From the NCBI GenBank assembly GCA_030429925.1, contig JAUIGQ010000015.1:1-32953 (forward strand): a stretch of 32,953 bases of DNA. Direction: 5' to 3'. The notes below the pieces were generated by a model. That model saw nothing but the letters and a program-made list of their open reading frames with translations, searched no databases and was not told where the DNA came from. Every line of letters begins with the position of its first letter. Position 1 is the stretch's first letter. Shown piece after piece: positions 6,437 through 30,170 of the stretch. Position numbers and translations under genes: made by a program. This DNA comes from Bacteroidia bacterium. Lineage in GTDB: Bacteria; Bacteroidota; Bacteroidia; Flavobacteriales_E; Vicingaceae.

Positions 6437-8227
6437 TTAAACCCTAACACCAATAACCAAGATATCATCAACTTGCTCCTCTTCTTGCATCCAGTCGAAG
6501 AGGGATTCTTTCAAGCCTTCTCTTTGCTCAGATAGGTCTTTATTGGAGAGTTCTATAAGCAGGTCTCTAAACCTCTTATACATAAATTTCTTTCCTCTAG
6601 GTCCACCGAATTGATCAGCGTAGCCGTCTGAGAAGATATAGATCTGATCGCCTTTTTGAAGCTGGATCTTATTGTTGGTAAACTTATTTTCTGCATCATT
6701 GACAAAGGACCCAATTGGAAACTTGTCGGCTTTTATTTGCTCAATATCACCGTCTCTAAGCAAGTATAATGGATTAAATGCCCCTGCGTATTCTAGTTCA
6801 AGACTTCCTTTCTTCAATGAACAAATTGCCACATCCATTCCATCTTTGCTGGTAGAATCTGCATCTTTTTGATGCAGAGTTTCAGTGACACCTTTGTTCA
6901 GGTGGTTTAGTATCTCTGCAGGACTAGATCCACCAGAGGTGATAATTGCTTGCTTCAATTGATTGTATCCAACGATAGACATAAAGGCACCGGGCACTCC
7001 ATGTCCTGTGCAATCCACAGCAGCAAAGAAAACTTTTTCATCTGTTTCACCCAACCAATAAAAGTCTCCACTTACAATATCCTTCGGCCTATAAAGAATA
7101 AAGGAATCCGGTAAAAGTTTTCTTACATAGCTTTCCGGAGGTAGAATTGCCTCTTGGATTTTCTTGGCATATTTGATACTATCAGTAACTTGAACGAAGT
7201 ATTCTTCGATCTGCATTCTTTGCTGATTGATCTCTTCTTTTTGCTTGACTACCTCTGCAGTTCGTTGTTTTACTTTTTCTTCTAGGATCCTCTCATTTTC
7301 AGCAAGATCATCACGCATCTTAAGCAATGCATGCCCTAAAGAATCCTTGGAGCTGAGAGGTTGATATTCTTTCTCAAAATTACCGGCACCAACAGCATTG
7401 GCAAAGTCTTTAGTTCTTTTCAGGCCAGATACAACATTGTTCATTGCAGCTGTCATTTCACCGATCTCATCATTTCCCTCTTTCATTTTACCTGCAGGGA
7501 ATACACCTCGACCAAGTTTTACTGCAACTTTCTTTAGTCGGATGATAGGATCAACAATTGTCTTAGTAGTATAGAATGCGATCACAATTCCAATGATGAT
7601 AAGAGCATTACCAAGATAGACCACTAGCATTTCCAAGCTATCAAAAGACTTGAACATACTAGCTGTATGTGAATCAGCGGCTTCCTTTTGAAGGATGATA
7701 AGGTTGTTTAGCTGACTCATCGCCAAATAGGTAAGACGATAGATTTCTCCTCCCTCTTCTATACTTCCATTTGCATTAAGAACTGCAAATGGATTTTCTT
7801 CATAATCTTCAAAGGTTTGAAGCATATCAATAACATCAATGGTCTGTTGATGAAAGAGAAGTTCAATTGTCTCGTAAAGGTTCTGAAGGGAATCTTGATG
7901 CGGATCTGGCCAGTTGAGTGAGAGTTGCTTGATTTTCTTCTTTAACTCAGGATATTCTTCTCTTCGAAAGTTAATCAATCGCTCTTTGTCTTCATGATGC
8001 TTAAAAGCACCAACCCATGTTTCTAGAAACAATCTGGACTCAAGAATGCTAAATTTAAGCTCTTGAAGGGCTTTTACTGAAGGAGTATTGATACTGTTGA
8101 TCTCGTCATTGATCCTCTTACTTTCACTGAGAGTAAAATAGGTCGTAACGAATACAATCATGGTAAGAACGATTAGAATACCGAAGCCGGTACCTATCTT
8201 CTTTCCGATTGTAAATCTGATCTTCAT
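6437..8227 (-). CDS. Membrane sensor with HAMP, coiled coil and SpoIIE/PP2C-type serine phosphatase
   Basis: A 596-residue inner-membrane signalling protein. TM1 is about residues 12-30 (GTGFGILIVLTMIVFVTTY). A ~160-residue periplasmic helical region follows, then TM2 about 200-220 (LVVYLGNALIIIGIVIAFYT), a HAMP linker (DPIIRLKKVAVKLGRG), a coiled coil (NERILEEKVKQRTAEVV), the linker SIKYAKKIQEAILPP, and a PP2C/SpoIIE domain. The phosphatase metal ligands are visible: VSGDFYW, DCTGHGVPGAFMS, SDGYADQFGG and QVDDILVIGV. It should dephosphorylate serine or threonine on a partner, often an anti-sigma antagonist, when a periplasmic signal arrives; no such partner is nearby. It is third in a tight operon after the YfiR-like and TPR genes (14 bp gap). 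Confidence 0.92.
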   Translation of the reverse strand: MKIRFTIGKKIGTGFGILIVLTMIVFVTTYFTLSESKRINDEINSINTPSVKALQELKFSILESRLFLETWVGAFKHHEDKERLINFRREEYPELKKKIKQLSLNWPDPHQDSLQNLYETIELLFHQQTIDVIDMLQTFEDYEENPFAVLNANGSIEEGGEIYRLTYLAMSQLNNLIILQKEAADSHTASMFKSFDSLEMLVVYLGNALIIIGIVIAFYTTKTIVDPIIRLKKVAVKLGRGVFPAGKMKEGNDEIGEMTAAMNNVVSGLKRTKDFANAVGAGNFEKEYQPLSSKDSLGHALLKMRDDLAENERILEEKVKQRTAEVVKQKEEINQQRMQIEEYFVQVTDSIKYAKKIQEAILPPESYVRKLLPDSFILYRPKDIVSGDFYWLGETDEKVFFAAVDCTGHGVPGAFMSIVGYNQLKQAIITSGGSSPAEILNHLNKGVTETLHQKDADSTSKDGMDVAICSLKKGSLELEYAGAFNPLYLLRDGDIEQIKADKFPIGSFVNDAENKFTNNKIQLQKGDQIYIFSDGYADQFGGPRGKKFMYKRFRDLLIELSNKDLSEQREGLKESLFDWMQEEEQVDDILVIGVRV

Positions 8228-8241
8228 TGGGGGGTTTTTCT

Positions 8242-9147
8242 TTATTCAGAACCACTATCTGAACCACCACCTAACTCGGAATCAAGAGCTTCTAACTCTT
8301 TCTTGTAGAATTCTGACTTTTCAATATCATTCAAGCTAAAGTAGATCCCTTGCAGTCCAATGAGATTTTCTCTCTTCTTGGGATCCAATTCATAAGCCTT
8401 AAGCATATAAGGCAATGACTTTTTGAAAAGTACGATGATGCGATCTTGAACCTCGTTCAATTGCTCGAGATCAAGACTGTAGTCCATATTATTTACAATG
8501 TCAACACCTTGGTTGTAGTATAGAATTCCCATATTGTAGTTTGCACTAACATTATTAGAGTCTACTTCCAGTATTTCATTGTATAGTTCAATTGTTTTAT
8601 TGTAATATTCTTGTGCGTCAGTTGAGTCTTCTTCAGCTAGTCTACTATAAATTGTTGCTAGAGCTAGATTGAAAATGATGTCCTTATCCTTGAAGTCCGT
8701 TCCTGGATAAGCAGTAGATATGATTTCCTTATAGAATTTATAATTACTTAATGCCTTTTTATATTCTGTATCATTTAAGGTAACGGCTGCGTGATTATAA
8801 ACAGTTTCTGCCAGATACTTCATGTTCTTTCGCGAGCTTTCAGAATAAGTCCCATCTGGTTCGAGCTCTATGGACTTTTTAAAGCTTTCTACGGCAATGA
8901 TCCTGTATGGAGATTGCTTCATATCAGGTTCTCTTTGCTTGAACAATTCCTTGTAAATGTTTCCTTTGTAATAGAAGGTAGACGCTTTGTCTTTGAAGAG
9001 GGTATCTTCAATTGCAGCATCGATCAATTCCTTCGCCTTATCCAATTCTCCCATCTTCAAATTGTATAACGCATTGGTAAGCTTGTTCTGGCTCAAGCCC
9101 ACCTTAGTTACAAGGAGTAAGATCAGTATGGTGGTTATCTTTCTCAC
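8242..9147 (-). CDS. Exported TPR-repeat protein
   Basis: A 301-residue protein with an N-terminal signal peptide (MRKITTILILLLVTKVGLSQ, cleavage probably just after LSQ). Helical tetratricopeptide-type repeats run through the body, for example ALYNLKMGELDKAKELIDAAI, YESFKKSIELEP-like segments, NNVSANYNMGILYYNQG and SLPYMLKAYELDPKKRENLIGL. Such repeats mount protein contacts in the periplasm. The start is GTG at 9147; the ATG overlapping the yfiR-like stop leads straight to TGA, so GTG is the only workable start and sits 1 nt after that stop. This spacing implies coupled translation. The C-terminus is a Gly/Ser/Asp-rich tail (ELGGGSDSGSE). Its position between a YfiR-like protein and a membrane phosphatase suggests it helps relay a periplasmic signal. 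Confidence 0.87.
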   Translation of the reverse strand: MRKITTILILLLVTKVGLSQNKLTNALYNLKMGELDKAKELIDAAIEDTLFKDKASTFYYKGNIYKELFKQREPDMKQSPYRIIAVESFKKSIELEPDGTYSESSRKNMKYLAETVYNHAAVTLNDTEYKKALSNYKFYKEIISTAYPGTDFKDKDIIFNLALATIYSRLAEEDSTDAQEYYNKTIELYNEILEVDSNNVSANYNMGILYYNQGVDIVNNMDYSLDLEQLNEVQDRIIVLFKKSLPYMLKAYELDPKKRENLIGLQGIYFSLNDIEKSEFYKKELEALDSELGGGSDSGSE

Positions 9148-9148
9148 A

Positions 9149-9685
9149 TTAATTAACTAATACAGCCAAGTTTTCTAGAACAGATGCGACCTTTAGGTTA
9201 CGCTGCTCTATGTTAGCTTTGTTTAATTCAAATTTTTGGCGGCTTCCAACTATAATAAAGTTAATGGCAGCCCCTTGTTTAGCCAATCCTGGCTTTTCTG
9301 TTATAACTAGGGTGCTCTTACCTTTTAAGCTGGTTAAAGCCTTGTTCAATTGGTCTGTACTATCTTCTGGAATATAAAGGATGTGAGGATTCCCTAAACT
9401 CGATGGATCCTCGATATTTCTTATTGAAAACGTCTGATTACTTACTTTCTTAACCTTTGACATTTTATCAAGCTCTTGAAAAAGTGCTTCATTCTCGCCT
9501 AATATACCAATGGTAAACTCACCAGTCTTGTACTCCTCAGGCCATTCAATATACTTTGTGAAATTGTATATGAAAACCGCCTTGATCTTAGCGTTTGTAT
9601 CCACCTTCTGACTAGAAGTACTTGGACTAAACGCAGTACTGACTGAAAAGACTGCCACCAATATTATGCTTACTATTCTTTTCAA
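9149..9685 (-). CDS. YfiR-family periplasmic protein
   Basis: A 178-residue exported protein: signal peptide MKRIVSIILVAVFSVSTAFS, then a single YfiR (DUF4154) domain. Diagnostic pieces are AKIKAVFIYNFTKYIEWPEEY, FTIGILGENEALFQELDKM, PHILYIP, STLVITEKPGLAKQGAAINFI and a C-terminal segment close to the family's INLxxA ending. In Pseudomonas, YfiR is a redox-sensitive periplasmic inhibitor of the HAMP-containing diguanylate cyclase YfiN. No GGDEF protein lies here, and the HAMP protein two genes downstream carries a phosphatase instead. By analogy this protein may gate that phosphatase; that is inference. The domain shows no cysteines, so the disulfide switch of Pseudomonas YfiR is absent. First gene of the operon. 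Confidence 0.88.
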   Translation of the reverse strand: MKRIVSIILVAVFSVSTAFSPSTSSQKVDTNAKIKAVFIYNFTKYIEWPEEYKTGEFTIGILGENEALFQELDKMSKVKKVSNQTFSIRNIEDPSSLGNPHILYIPEDSTDQLNKALTSLKGKSTLVITEKPGLAKQGAAINFIIVGSRQKFELNKANIEQRNLKVASVLENLAVLVN

Positions 9686-15371: not shown

Positions 15372-15441
15372 CAGTCGAACTGTTAATAGTATATCTCAAT
15401 GAGTAAATGATCAGTTGACTAAGAGAATACCTTTGTTAGCA

Positions 15442-16677
15442 ATGAAGAACATATTACTTATATCTAGCCTATTCTTATCTGTGCTTCTATTGGGCAGTAA
15501 CCCTCAAAAGATGAAGCTCTCTGAGGATGATTTCCAGACCAACTTCAATATTGCCAAGCAACATCTTTCACAGAGAAGAATTGAAAAAGCAATACCTTAT
15601 CTCACTTATTTACAAAAAGAGTTTCCTTCCAATGCCAATCTTAAGTATTTGATCGGTTTGTGTTATGCAGAGTTGAATATTGTAAATCCATTGACCATTG
15701 AATTATTGGAAAAAGCGGCTGAAAAGAGCTCTCTAGATTATGATCCGAATAGCCTAACTGAGAAAAGGGTTCCTGTTTATGTATACTATTATCTCTGTTT
15801 AGCATATGCACAGAATAGAATGTGCGATAAGGCTGAAGAAGCAAGAAGTAAGTTCGAGGAGATCTATCCATACAAGGATCCATTTTATCTGAAGGAGTCA
15901 TCAAGTTGGATAGAAAAGTGCAAAGAGATGGAGGAAGTGCCTGAAGAGGATAGCATTCCTGAGTACCCTGACTTTATTCCTTTTTCATCTGATCAATCAG
16001 GACTGTCAATGGAGGAAATAATTCCAGTGGATTCTTCAAGAGAAGAGCTTAGCTCTAATGAGCAAGCTGCAGCAAAAATAAATATGTATCCGAGTCATGT
16101 TGTTACAAAGCATGTAGAGTATAGCACTGGATTCCCACTATATGGAGTTCAATTGGGAGCATTTAAAGAAGTGGTTCCTGTGGCACGATTCAAAGACTTA
16201 AAGAACGTGGATGCCTTTATGGATAAAGATGGTCTTATAAGGTATGTAGTAGGTCATTTTGGGATTTATTCGCAAGCAGAGTCTTTATTGAAAGTTATCA
16301 AGGAGAAGGGTTATCCGGATGCATTTGTTGTGAATGTCAACAATGCTCGAAAGTTTGCAGATGAGGTGATCAGCATTGATAATGTTAACATCAAAAGAAC
16401 ATTAAAAGGTAAAGTGGAATATAGAATCCAAGTCGGAGCATTTAAAGATGAAGTTCCGGAAGAGTTAGCTGCTATGTATTTGAAGATTGAAGGAATTGAG
16501 GAAGTAAGTGACAAAGAGCTAACCTACTTAACGGTTGGCAAATACAACACATATGAAGAAGCAAAAGCTTATCAGCAAGGGATCAGAGATGCAGGGATCT
16601 CAGACGCTTTTGTGATTGCTTTGAATGAGGGGAAAAAGATCCCGCTTCAGAAAGCAAATAATTATGGTAAGAACTAA
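15442..16677 (+). CDS. Exported TPR plus double SPOR-like repeat protein, first of a tandem pair
   Basis: About 411 residues from the ATG at 15442; the TTG 27 bp upstream is unlikely because the signal peptide MKNILLISSLFLSVLLLGS begins here. After export the N-terminal half has TPR-like helices (FNIAKQHLSQRRIEKAIPYLTYLQKEFPSNANLKYLIGLCYAEL; VYYYLCLAYAQNRMCDKAEEA). An acidic linker follows, then two SPOR-like units, one around YGVQLGAFKEVVPVARF with YVVGHFGIYSQAESLLKVI, the other around YRIQVGAFKDEVPEEL with LTVGKYNTYEEAKAY. SPOR domains bind denuded peptidoglycan glycans, so it may act in the periplasm at the cell wall. The next gene is a paralogue starting 14 bp inside its 3' end. Confidence 0.85.
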   Translation: MKNILLISSLFLSVLLLGSNPQKMKLSEDDFQTNFNIAKQHLSQRRIEKAIPYLTYLQKEFPSNANLKYLIGLCYAELNIVNPLTIELLEKAAEKSSLDYDPNSLTEKRVPVYVYYYLCLAYAQNRMCDKAEEARSKFEEIYPYKDPFYLKESSSWIEKCKEMEEVPEEDSIPEYPDFIPFSSDQSGLSMEEIIPVDSSREELSSNEQAAAKINMYPSHVVTKHVEYSTGFPLYGVQLGAFKEVVPVARFKDLKNVDAFMDKDGLIRYVVGHFGIYSQAESLLKVIKEKGYPDAFVVNVNNARKFADEVISIDNVNIKRTLKGKVEYRIQVGAFKDEVPEELAAMYLKIEGIEEVSDKELTYLTVGKYNTYEEAKAYQQGIRDAGISDAFVIALNEGKKIPLQKANNYGKN

Positions 16678-17902
16678 AATAGCAAGCCTCCTTCTTATTT
16701 TCTCTCTTCTACTGCCGGCTATATCTATGGCAGAGTCCAAATTGAGCAATGAAGAGTTGTTTGACCTTGCTAGGAAGCAACTAGCTAAAAGAGAAATAGA
16801 AGATGCTATTCTTAGTTTGAGAAAATTATATGTGCAAGATAGATCCAATGCCAATATCAATTTTCTTATGGGTGCCGCATATACTGAGCTAACAGCATCT
16901 TCAGATAAAGCGATATACCATCTTAAGAAGGCTGTCAAGCATATAGATGAGTATTACAAAGTAGGCGATTATGATGAGAAAAACGCTCCGGTTCACACCT
17001 ATTATTACTTAACCATAGCCCTTTCAGCAAGAGATGATTGTTCAAAGGCTGCAGCGGCTAATGAGAAATTGAAGAAGTATACATCAATGATCGATCTGTA
17101 CTTCGTAGATGAAGCTGCAAGACATATGCAGAAATGTCCTTATGAGAAGATAGACCCCACCTTTGAAAGTTGGTTGAACTCAAATGAAAAACCTGAAGGT
17201 TATTTGCCCGATAGTTTGCCTGTGGATTCTGCATTTGTTGAAGAAGTTGAAGAAATAGCTATTCCTGCAGATACTATTCTAGCAGATCTAGATAGTTTGA
17301 GGAAAGTGGAACTTGGGGTGGTTACAAGAGAACTTGAATACTCTACATCAGCCCCTTTGTATGGGGTGCAAATAGGAAGCAATACCATGCCCAGTCCTAT
17401 AAGTGCCTATAGTAAGCTAAAGAATGTAGATGTATTTATAGATAAGAATGGAATGGTTAGATATGTTGTTGGTCATTTCTCCTATAAGAAACAAGCTGAA
17501 TCTCTTTTGGTAAAATTGAAGGAAGAGGGTTATAAGGATGCATTCGTAGTAAATGTCAACAATGAAAGAAAGTATTCTAATGAGCTAATTAGCTTTGGCA
17601 ACGTTAATTTAAAGGCAGGGATCAAAGGGGCAGTTGAGTATTATGTTCAATTGGGCGCATTTAGAGATAGTGTTCCTGACTATTTAATGCAGATGTATTT
17701 GACGGTTGATGGATTGAAGGAGCTCCGATATCGAGAGATGACACTAATGACCGTTGGCACTTTTTCTACTTATAAAGAAAGTGTGAAAAAGAAGGAAGAT
17801 CTTCAAAAGTTACCTATAGAAGGTATTCAGGAAGCTTTTATCGTAGCATTCAATAGAGGCAAGAAGATCAGTCTGCAGGAAGCTATCAATCATACAGATT
17901 AG
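16664..17902 (+). CDS. Exported TPR plus double SPOR-like repeat protein, second of a tandem pair
   Basis: About 412 residues from the ATG at 16664 (MVRTKIASLLLIFSLLLPAISMA, a good signal peptide). A longer reading from 16625 adds 13 residues that are merely out-of-frame sequence of the previous gene. The layout matches its upstream paralogue step by step: TPR helices (LFDLARKQLAKREIEDAILSLRKLYVQDRSNANINFLMGAAYTEL), acidic linker, SPOR-like unit 1 (LYGVQIGSNTMP ... RYVVGHFSYKKQAESLLVKL ... DAFVVNVNN) and unit 2 (EYYVQLGAFRDSVPDYL ... MTVGTFSTYKES ... EAFIVAFN). Unit 1 has lost the canonical GAF of VQLGAF (GSN here), so its glycan binding may have changed. The 14 bp overlap with its paralogue indicates cotranslation, and a strong hairpin ends the operon. 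Confidence 0.87.
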   Translation: MVRTKIASLLLIFSLLLPAISMAESKLSNEELFDLARKQLAKREIEDAILSLRKLYVQDRSNANINFLMGAAYTELTASSDKAIYHLKKAVKHIDEYYKVGDYDEKNAPVHTYYYLTIALSARDDCSKAAAANEKLKKYTSMIDLYFVDEAARHMQKCPYEKIDPTFESWLNSNEKPEGYLPDSLPVDSAFVEEVEEIAIPADTILADLDSLRKVELGVVTRELEYSTSAPLYGVQIGSNTMPSPISAYSKLKNVDVFIDKNGMVRYVVGHFSYKKQAESLLVKLKEEGYKDAFVVNVNNERKYSNELISFGNVNLKAGIKGAVEYYVQLGAFRDSVPDYLMQMYLTVDGLKELRYREMTLMTVGTFSTYKESVKKKEDLQKLPIEGIQEAFIVAFNRGKKISLQEAINHTD

Positions 17903-28627: not shown

Positions 28628-28774
28628 TTGAAGAAAGGAAACCTTCCGGTCAAGATCTGTATTGTCTGCAAAAGACCCTTCGAATGGAGAAAGAAGTGGG
28701 AAAAGAATTGGGAAAATGTTAAGTACTGCAGCAAGAGATGCGCATCCAATAGAAAAGCAGATATCAATGAGTAA
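28628..28774 (+). CDS. DUF2256 zinc-ribbon mini-protein
   Basis: A 48-residue protein read from TTG at 28628; an in-frame TAA lies directly upstream, so TTG is the only likely start. The sequence is the standard DUF2256 pattern: [37 protein letters not shown], with zinc-ligand cysteines at 11, 14, 34 and 38 and the WRKKWEKNW core. The function is unknown, but this family is well known as a neighbour of DASH cryptochromes and photolyases. Here it overlaps the cry-DASH start by 8 bp, so the two are cotranslated. It is shorter than common gene-calling cut-offs and easily missed; the long frame starting at 28662 for the cryptochrome actually runs over it. Confidence 0.92.
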
Positions 28775-30170
28775 AGCTGTTGTTTGGTTTAGAAAAGATC
28801 TTCGATTGGATGATAATGAAGTGCTTCACAAAGCCATTCAGAATGAAGATGAATTACTCTTTTTCTATTGCTTTGAAGCAAGTGAATTTGGCAAAACTTC
28901 GTTTGGCTTTGCTAAAACAGATTCATATCGTGCTCAATTCTTGATCGAGAGCGTAAGTGATCTGAGACAAAGATTAGCCGGAAAAGGGGTTCAGTTAATT
29001 GTTAGAGTTGGAGAAACAGCTGATCATTTAAAGACTTTAGTAGAACAAAGTGAAGTCGAGAAGATCTATACTTCCAAAGCAATTCATCAAGAGGAGATTG
29101 CTATCCAAGAAAGGGTGGAAGAAATTCCCGGAATCCAGATCGATTATTCATTTGGAAGTACGCTCTACCATGTCAATGACCTACCCCATCATTATAAAGA
29201 CACTCCAAAAGTTTTTACTGCATTCAGAAAAGCAGTTGAGAAGCATTCCAAAGTTAGAAAGTTGATTCCCGAACCATTTGAATTAAAAGCTTCTACCTTA
29301 AAGATAGAAGCAGGAGATATTCCAACATTAAGCAATCTAGGAATAGAAAGAAAAGAAAGGGACCCAAGAGCTGCTACTCTCGCAAAGGGAGGAGAAACTG
29401 AAGCAATGAAAAGGCTAGAAGAATACCTTTTTGGTTCTGAAGCCTTGTCCACTTATAAGGAGACTAGAAATGGATTGTTGGGTGAGAACTATTCCTCCAA
29501 GTTCTCTCTATGGTTGTGGAACGGCTGCATTTCGCCTCGCAGGATCTATTGGGAGATCAAAGAGTACGAGAATCAGATCAAAAAGAATCAATCAACTTAT
29601 TGGCTAGTTTTTGAGTTGATCTGGAGGGATTTCTTTAAGTACATGGCCCTTCAGAATGGAAATCGAATATTTCACTTGAATGGGCTCAAGGAGACTAGCA
29701 ATAATGATTGGTCTACTGATAGAGAAACTTTCGACCGCTGGGCTTCAGCTGAAACAGGCGTACCATTTATTGATGCCAATATGAAAGAGTTGAATCTGAC
29801 CGGATTCATGAGTAATCGTGGTCGACAAAATGTGGCTTCTTTCCTGGTGAAGGATCTTGGTATCGACTGGAGGATGGGTGCAGAATACTTTGAGTCTAAA
29901 CTGATCGATTACGATGTGGCAAGTAACTACGGAAATTGGATGTATATAGCGGGTGTTGGCAATGACCCTAGAGATCGGTACTTCAATGTGATCAATCAAG
30001 CCAAACGATATGACCCCCATGGTGATTATGTGAAATACTGGATACCTGACTTAGCTGATGTATCTGCTGAATATATTCACCACCCTTGGACAGAATCCTC
30101 CTCCTTGTTCAAGGAGCAATCCTACCCTCAACCAATAGTAGAACCAGATTATTGGAAGAAATATTATTAA
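28767..30170 (+). CDS. DASH-family cryptochrome/photolyase
   Basis: A 467-residue flavoprotein from the ATG at 28767 ([20 protein letters not shown], the true conserved N-terminus); starting at 28662 would add 35 residues of DUF2256-overlapping sequence. DASH proteins repair UV dimers in single-stranded DNA and may act as blue-light sensors. Family markers include [76 protein letters not shown] and [10 protein letters not shown]. The FAD-binding core is [54 protein letters not shown], and [24 protein letters not shown]. Full length. Its stop overlaps that of convergent pdeM by 4 bp. Confidence 0.96.

Follow-up and report, generated by a model that had tools for sequence, protein, structure and literature searches.

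The window analysed here, a stretch of 32,953 nucleotides on a Vicingaceae-like (Bacteroidota) contig, contained three closely spaced genes that all lie on the minus strand. In reading order they encode a YfiR/HmsC-like periplasmic protein of family PF13689 (9149..9685; 178 aa, TTG start, signal peptide), an exported TPR protein (8242..9147; 301 aa, GTG start) and a 596-aa membrane sensor phosphatase (6437..8227) with the architecture TM1, predicted 4-helix bundle (4HB), TM2, HAMP, coiled coil and SiaA-type PP2C (SpoIIE) domain. The genes are separated by 1 nt and then by 14 nt, and this layout is exactly the one described in an initial annotation of the sequence. The source assembly comprises 2.6 Mb in 193 contigs, the genome being 93% complete, and its nearest named relatives are Flavobacteriales MAGs and Vicingaceae, including the cultured Acidiluteibacter ferrifornacis and a Vicingus serpentipes MAG.

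To our knowledge, the only function characterised for YfiR so far is repression of a diguanylate cyclase. The window protein matched DUF4154/YfiR at E=4.6e-34, its 118 bits passing the Pfam gathering threshold of 24.9, and scored 109.5 bits against NCBIfam NF053591 (TOL_0243 YfiR-like), below the cut-off of 125, and 21.6 bits against NF053586 (YfiR equivalog, sequestration protein), below the curated cut-off of 85. The mature protein has no cysteine, as the initial annotation had stated, and among 78 YfiR proteins encoded in such trios (window included) there were no cysteines in 23, one in 40, two in 13 and three in 2, so that cysteine absence is not a family trait. The further claim that control must differ from the known disulfide switch holds for this protein; the Cys145-Cys152 bond of Pseudomonas YfiR, however, has been described mainly as structural (PMC4655355). 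At one other locus (L120:2951-3679) an extension bearing a lipoprotein-like signal lay N-terminal to the YfiR domain, which is possibly membrane-anchored.

The TPR protein matched Pfam TPR families with E-values down to 2e-5 and TPR-S at 3.8e-6, just over its cut-off, and its AlphaFold2 model (pLDDT 91.6) consisted of an N-terminal signal helix followed by a helical solenoid. All matches in a structure search of the PDB were TPR proteins, generic solenoids only, and no lipobox was found in the sequence. In Pseudomonas, YfiB is an OmpA-like outer-membrane lipoprotein. OmpA proteins beside YfiR were seen only with versions of the locus that carry a histidine kinase, for example where a PD40-OmpA protein, YfiR and a hybrid histidine kinase stand in a row (L111:1924-7158; L121:1914-6738), and at two further kinase loci (L113, L116) the additional gene adjoining yfiR encoded a TonB-receptor-like protein. 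Given these OmpA and TonB-receptor genes in the kinase versions and the OmpA-like nature of YfiB, it is plausible by analogy that the third envelope component is variable and that the TPR protein, conserved in the trio, fills its place here.

The output domain of the third protein was recognised as SpoIIE by Pfam (E=4.6e-20) and by the NCBIfam SiaA model at E=6.5e-71, where the best stretch began at residue 265 and the 239.7 bits remained far below the equivalog cut-off of 700. SiaA (PDB 6k4e) was the best PDB match of the catalytic domain (6440..7042, minus strand) both by sequence (E=1.7e-37) and by fold, with a Foldseek E-value of 4.5e-17, a target TM of 0.87 and 32% identity. The metal site of SiaA involves D457, D474, C475, G477, D600, G601 and D653 (PMC7647112); the counterparts in the window protein are D388, D405, C406, G408, D534, G535 and D587 or D588, all of which were invariant in our phosphatase alignment, the unusual cysteine of the DCxGHG motif included. 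The protein thus combines two TM segments, a PP2C domain that keeps the metal-site residues of SiaA and a HAMP domain that scored just under the Pfam cut-off (E=4.5e-5, 24.1 bits against 25), which are the features taken to define the SiaA type, and its catalytic part is closest to SiaA of P. aeruginosa.

Residues 1-270 of the phosphatase (7418..8227, minus strand) form a putative receptor module. Its periplasmic part lies between hydrophobic segments at residues ~7-36 and ~196-229 and was predicted to be an all-helical 4-helix bundle (AlphaFold2, 19 orthologues, mean pLDDT 79.6).

A GTDB scan with one genome per species and the YfiR alignment as query yielded 80 best loci, selected by similarity to trio YfiRs, and 77 of them keep the order YfiR, TPR, HAMP-SpoIIE on one strand at close spacing, the two gaps having medians of 1 and 25 nt. 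These loci are spread over Flavobacteriales, Chitinophagales and Cytophagales, and the cultured A. ferrifornacis S-15 (L165) carries the trio. Two of the three exceptions (L202, L223) were cut by contig ends, and the third (L234), from the Bacteroidales, had two YfiR genes followed by a 4HB/HAMP protein and no TPR gene. The latter arrangement (L234:2010-5504) ended in a 4HB-HAMP-GAF-PAS protein that has no catalytic domain and may be either a third output type or a truncated kinase. Across 60 related genomes the TPR and YfiR genes were adjacent in nearly every genome having both, and the third gene in the fetched loci of relatives was nearly always a HAMP-SpoIIE gene of ~595 aa, the phosphatase of one genome (G043) sitting elsewhere. 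The neighbourhood survey that had been suggested as a check therefore found YfiR and HAMP-SpoIIE in conserved linkage, and the recurrence of the same arrangement in 77 of 80 loci rules out chance proximity of the three genes. A larger operon that would include the downstream exonuclease and ABC genes or the upstream USP, response regulator and histidine kinase genes was considered and rejected, as these neighbours are common only to closer relatives. Since the genes flanking the window trio (small basic protein, histidine kinase, response regulator, USP and exonuclease) are kept only in closer relatives and the trio persists elsewhere, the trio alone is the conserved unit.

The receptor module also followed YfiR beyond the trio. 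Both were present in 46 of the 60 genomes and neither in 11, with two genomes having YfiR only (G037, G048) and one having the receptor only, the last being a HAMP-only match. With one genome per family the corresponding counts were 12 with both, 2 with YfiR only, 1 with the receptor only and 9 with neither (p=5e-4). Homologous receptors with histidine-kinase output were located near YfiR at L113 (24% identity, E=2e-21) and L116 (30%, E=3e-34). At the level of sequence, the 4HB receptor co-occurs with YfiR whether the output is SpoIIE or a histidine kinase.

Covalent fusions linked YfiR to both types of output. The source genome itself encodes a 621-aa protein (L130:618-2483) in which a signal peptide, YfiR domain (Pfam 9e-17), long coiled coil, TM segment and SpoIIE domain (1.7e-19) form one chain; with 13 other genes, 14 YfiR-SpoIIE fusion genes from this and related genomes were aligned. 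Similarly, a single chain in genome G036 (L141:2963-4774) joins a YfiR domain to a histidine kinase. Within sequence data these fusions are the most direct indication that the YfiR domain and these outputs share one mechanism.

Gene order in three taxonomic orders, the fusions and the receptor co-occurrence strongly support the proposal, made in the initial annotation, that a YfiR input is connected to a phosphatase output. The receiving domain, a predicted 4-helix bundle, differs from what is known of YfiN, and that annotation had not noticed that the phosphatase is SiaA-like and has SiaB/SiaC partners. Sequence comparison establishes the gene order, the fusions, the family of the phosphatase and its catalytic residues, and that SiaB and SiaC are present and in part linked to the trio in operons (see below); from these we consider it fairly probable that YfiR, the TPR protein and the 4HB/HAMP receptor make up an envelope sensor that governs the action of a SiaA-type phosphatase on SiaC. 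The YfiR-like protein would bind, in the periplasm, to the 4-helix bundle of the phosphatase, the TPR protein possibly serving as an accessory or upstream sensor, and the signal would pass through TM2, HAMP and coiled coil to set the activity of the PP2C domain. This domain would most likely strip phosphate from the threonine of a SiaC-family protein, opposing a SiaB-family kinase that would put it there. Because the sensor-controlled PP2C would undo phosphorylation by SiaB, the state of the envelope would set the level of SiaC phosphorylation.

The sign of YfiR action within such a sensor may be different from that in Pseudomonas. It is possible, although we hold it to be the less probable reading, that YfiR acts as a co-receptor, switching the phosphatase on when it binds a ligand, and not as a brake released by a third component. 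Binding-protein co-receptors on helical-bundle sensors are familiar from TorT-TorS, and the predicted 4-helix bundle of the receptor could be compared with the sensor in such a pair. The fusions tether YfiR permanently to a membrane segment, an arrangement more in keeping with a sensor domain than with an inhibitor that can be released, and, as far as they can be read, would lean somewhat towards a co-receptor. In addition, YfiR resembles in structure a domain annotated as ABC in PDB 3LFT (PMC4655355). Against this reading, the one YfiR characterised, that of Pseudomonas, acts as a repressor, and YfiR is not known to bind a ligand.

For the sensor-controlled phosphatase favoured here, the assignment of SiaC as target draws on homology and on relatives, since SiaB and SiaC lie on other contigs than the trio and the source genome has nine further SpoIIE domains. 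This genome contains a SiaB kinase and SiaC with a phospho-acceptor, the SiaB-SiaC pairs being located apart from the trio. The SiaC threonine (T68 in P. aeruginosa) is kept in one source-genome copy (contig C123) and at L172, L217, L226 and L230, the residue being mostly serine elsewhere, and the catalytic glutamate of SiaB (Glu61) is conserved. Three Cytophagales loci (L217, L226, L230) had a YfiR-TPR-SpoIIE-SiaB-SiaC operon with further gaps of ~60 and ~5 nt, at L172 SiaB-SiaC lay directly upstream of YfiR-TPR-SpoIIE, and at L129 a YfiR-SpoIIE fusion was followed by SiaC after 10 nt. At L200, L207 and L218 SiaB-SiaC were found ~3-4 kb upstream on the same strand with opposite-strand genes between, and hence not in one operon with the trio. 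SiaC was present in 42 of 42 trio genomes and in 9 of 18 others, an association (p=3e-6, and 0.009 when each family is represented by a single genome) that is inflated by relatedness, and none was found in the two genomes with kinase-only receptors (G049, G058). SiaC also serves other phosphatases and occurs in genomes lacking the trio (9/18). With ten SpoIIE domains against three SiaC in the source genome, a different substrate such as a STAS protein, an anti-sigma factor antagonist or a kinase is possible, and the absence of linkage between SiaB/SiaC and the trio in this genome points the same way; we nevertheless regard this as unlikely, as among solved relatives SiaA is the nearest, the trio continues directly into SiaB-SiaC at three Cytophagales loci and follows this pair at L172, and no trio genome was without SiaC. 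That the three genes merely share a transcript, their products acting independently and the linkage reflecting shared expression, is very improbable given the YfiR-SpoIIE and YfiR-histidine kinase fusions, the tight co-occurrence of YfiR and receptor across outputs and the close spacing preserved over several orders, even though YfiR also occurs without the receptor in G037 and G048.

SiaC of P. aeruginosa is an activator of the cyclase SiaD (PMC8457831). The 93% complete source genome gave no GGDEF match, neither as a GGDEF output nor as SiaD, so the effector either differs or is missing from the assembly. A GGDEF output for the operon itself was likewise rejected, as the membrane partner carries SpoIIE, and the single class III cyclase of the genome was discarded as SiaC effector because no SiaD-like motif was seen in its sequence. 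SiaC is followed in the Cytophagales operons by a gene (L217:10580-11086; L226:7197-7706; L230:10564-11127) for a coiled-coil membrane protein of 168-187 aa with C-terminal hydrophobic helices, which is a candidate SiaC effector. By eye, its K/R-V-S-D-K-L-Q stretch resembles R80-I81-S82-D83-R84-Y85-Q86 of SiaD, in which S82 and Q86 contact Thr68 of SiaC (PMC8457831). Profile and PDB searches gave no support for this likeness, and as a PDB search with the short motif missed SiaD and hit coiled coils of unrelated proteins, the motif is a lead only. Neither the protein nor its motif, searched as a DNA pattern, had a convincing match in the source genome.

The trio shares with the YfiBNR system of P. 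aeruginosa (YfiN = TpbB) a periplasmic YfiR-family protein, an envelope component and a two-TM HAMP membrane enzyme. It differs in having a PP2C instead of a GGDEF output, a predicted 4-helix bundle receptor unlike what is known of YfiN, a TPR protein without lipobox in place of the outer-membrane OmpA lipoprotein YfiB, and a YfiR with no cysteines (0-3 in relatives) where that of Pseudomonas has two cysteine pairs. With SiaABCD of P. aeruginosa it shares the two-TM HAMP PP2C phosphatase with its DCxGHG active site and the SiaB and SiaC families, present in the genome and in operons of relatives with Thr68 and the kinase glutamate conserved; here YfiR and the TPR protein are added at the input, the N-terminal sensor part has no match to SiaA, SiaB/SiaC are unlinked in the source genome, and no SiaD/GGDEF was found in it. 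RsbU/SpoIIE partner-switch phosphatases also place a PP2C behind a sensory input, with an opposing kinase and a STAS-like substrate, whereas here SiaC (DUF1987) is the likely substrate family and the input lies in the periplasm and involves YfiR. Alternative YfiR outputs are already known to annotators, since NCBIfam NF053591 and NF053592 (sensor histidine kinase near YfiR-like) pair a YfiR-like protein with a two-TM HAMP sensor kinase, and some YfiR-linked kinases contain a homologue of the present receptor module; in contrast, the output here is a phosphatase and the window proteins fall below both cut-offs.

Comparison of the genes thus supports well a new combination of two known systems, in which YfiR-type input is joined to SiaA-type partner switching. 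Among the open-access papers searched we found no relevant one joining YfiR with SpoIIE, PP2C or Bacteroidetes, nor any characterised case, in agreement with the initial annotation, which had called the combination biochemically uncharacterised. If YfiR also gates the phosphatase, one input module would serve at least three kinds of output (GGDEF, kinase and PP2C), and there would be a candidate signal for the SiaBC switch of Bacteroidota. Tentatively, YfiR might be a portable envelope sensor of Bacteroidota with one receptor module, a kinase or SiaA-SiaB-SiaC output and an exchangeable third component (OmpA, TonB receptor or TPR), SiaC acting, where GGDEF is absent, on a non-cyclase effector that could be the coiled-coil protein encoded after it. 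The receptor module, the fusions and the five-gene operons make the question approachable with purified parts.

Elsewhere in the window, inspection by eye identified two photolyase/cryptochrome-like proteins (756-1985 and 28662-30170), the gene for the first adjoining SRPBCC-like and NAD-dependent epimerase-like genes. Two overlapping neighbouring genes for paralogous TPR/SPOR-like proteins (15415-17902), also recognised by eye, appear to have arisen by tandem duplication.
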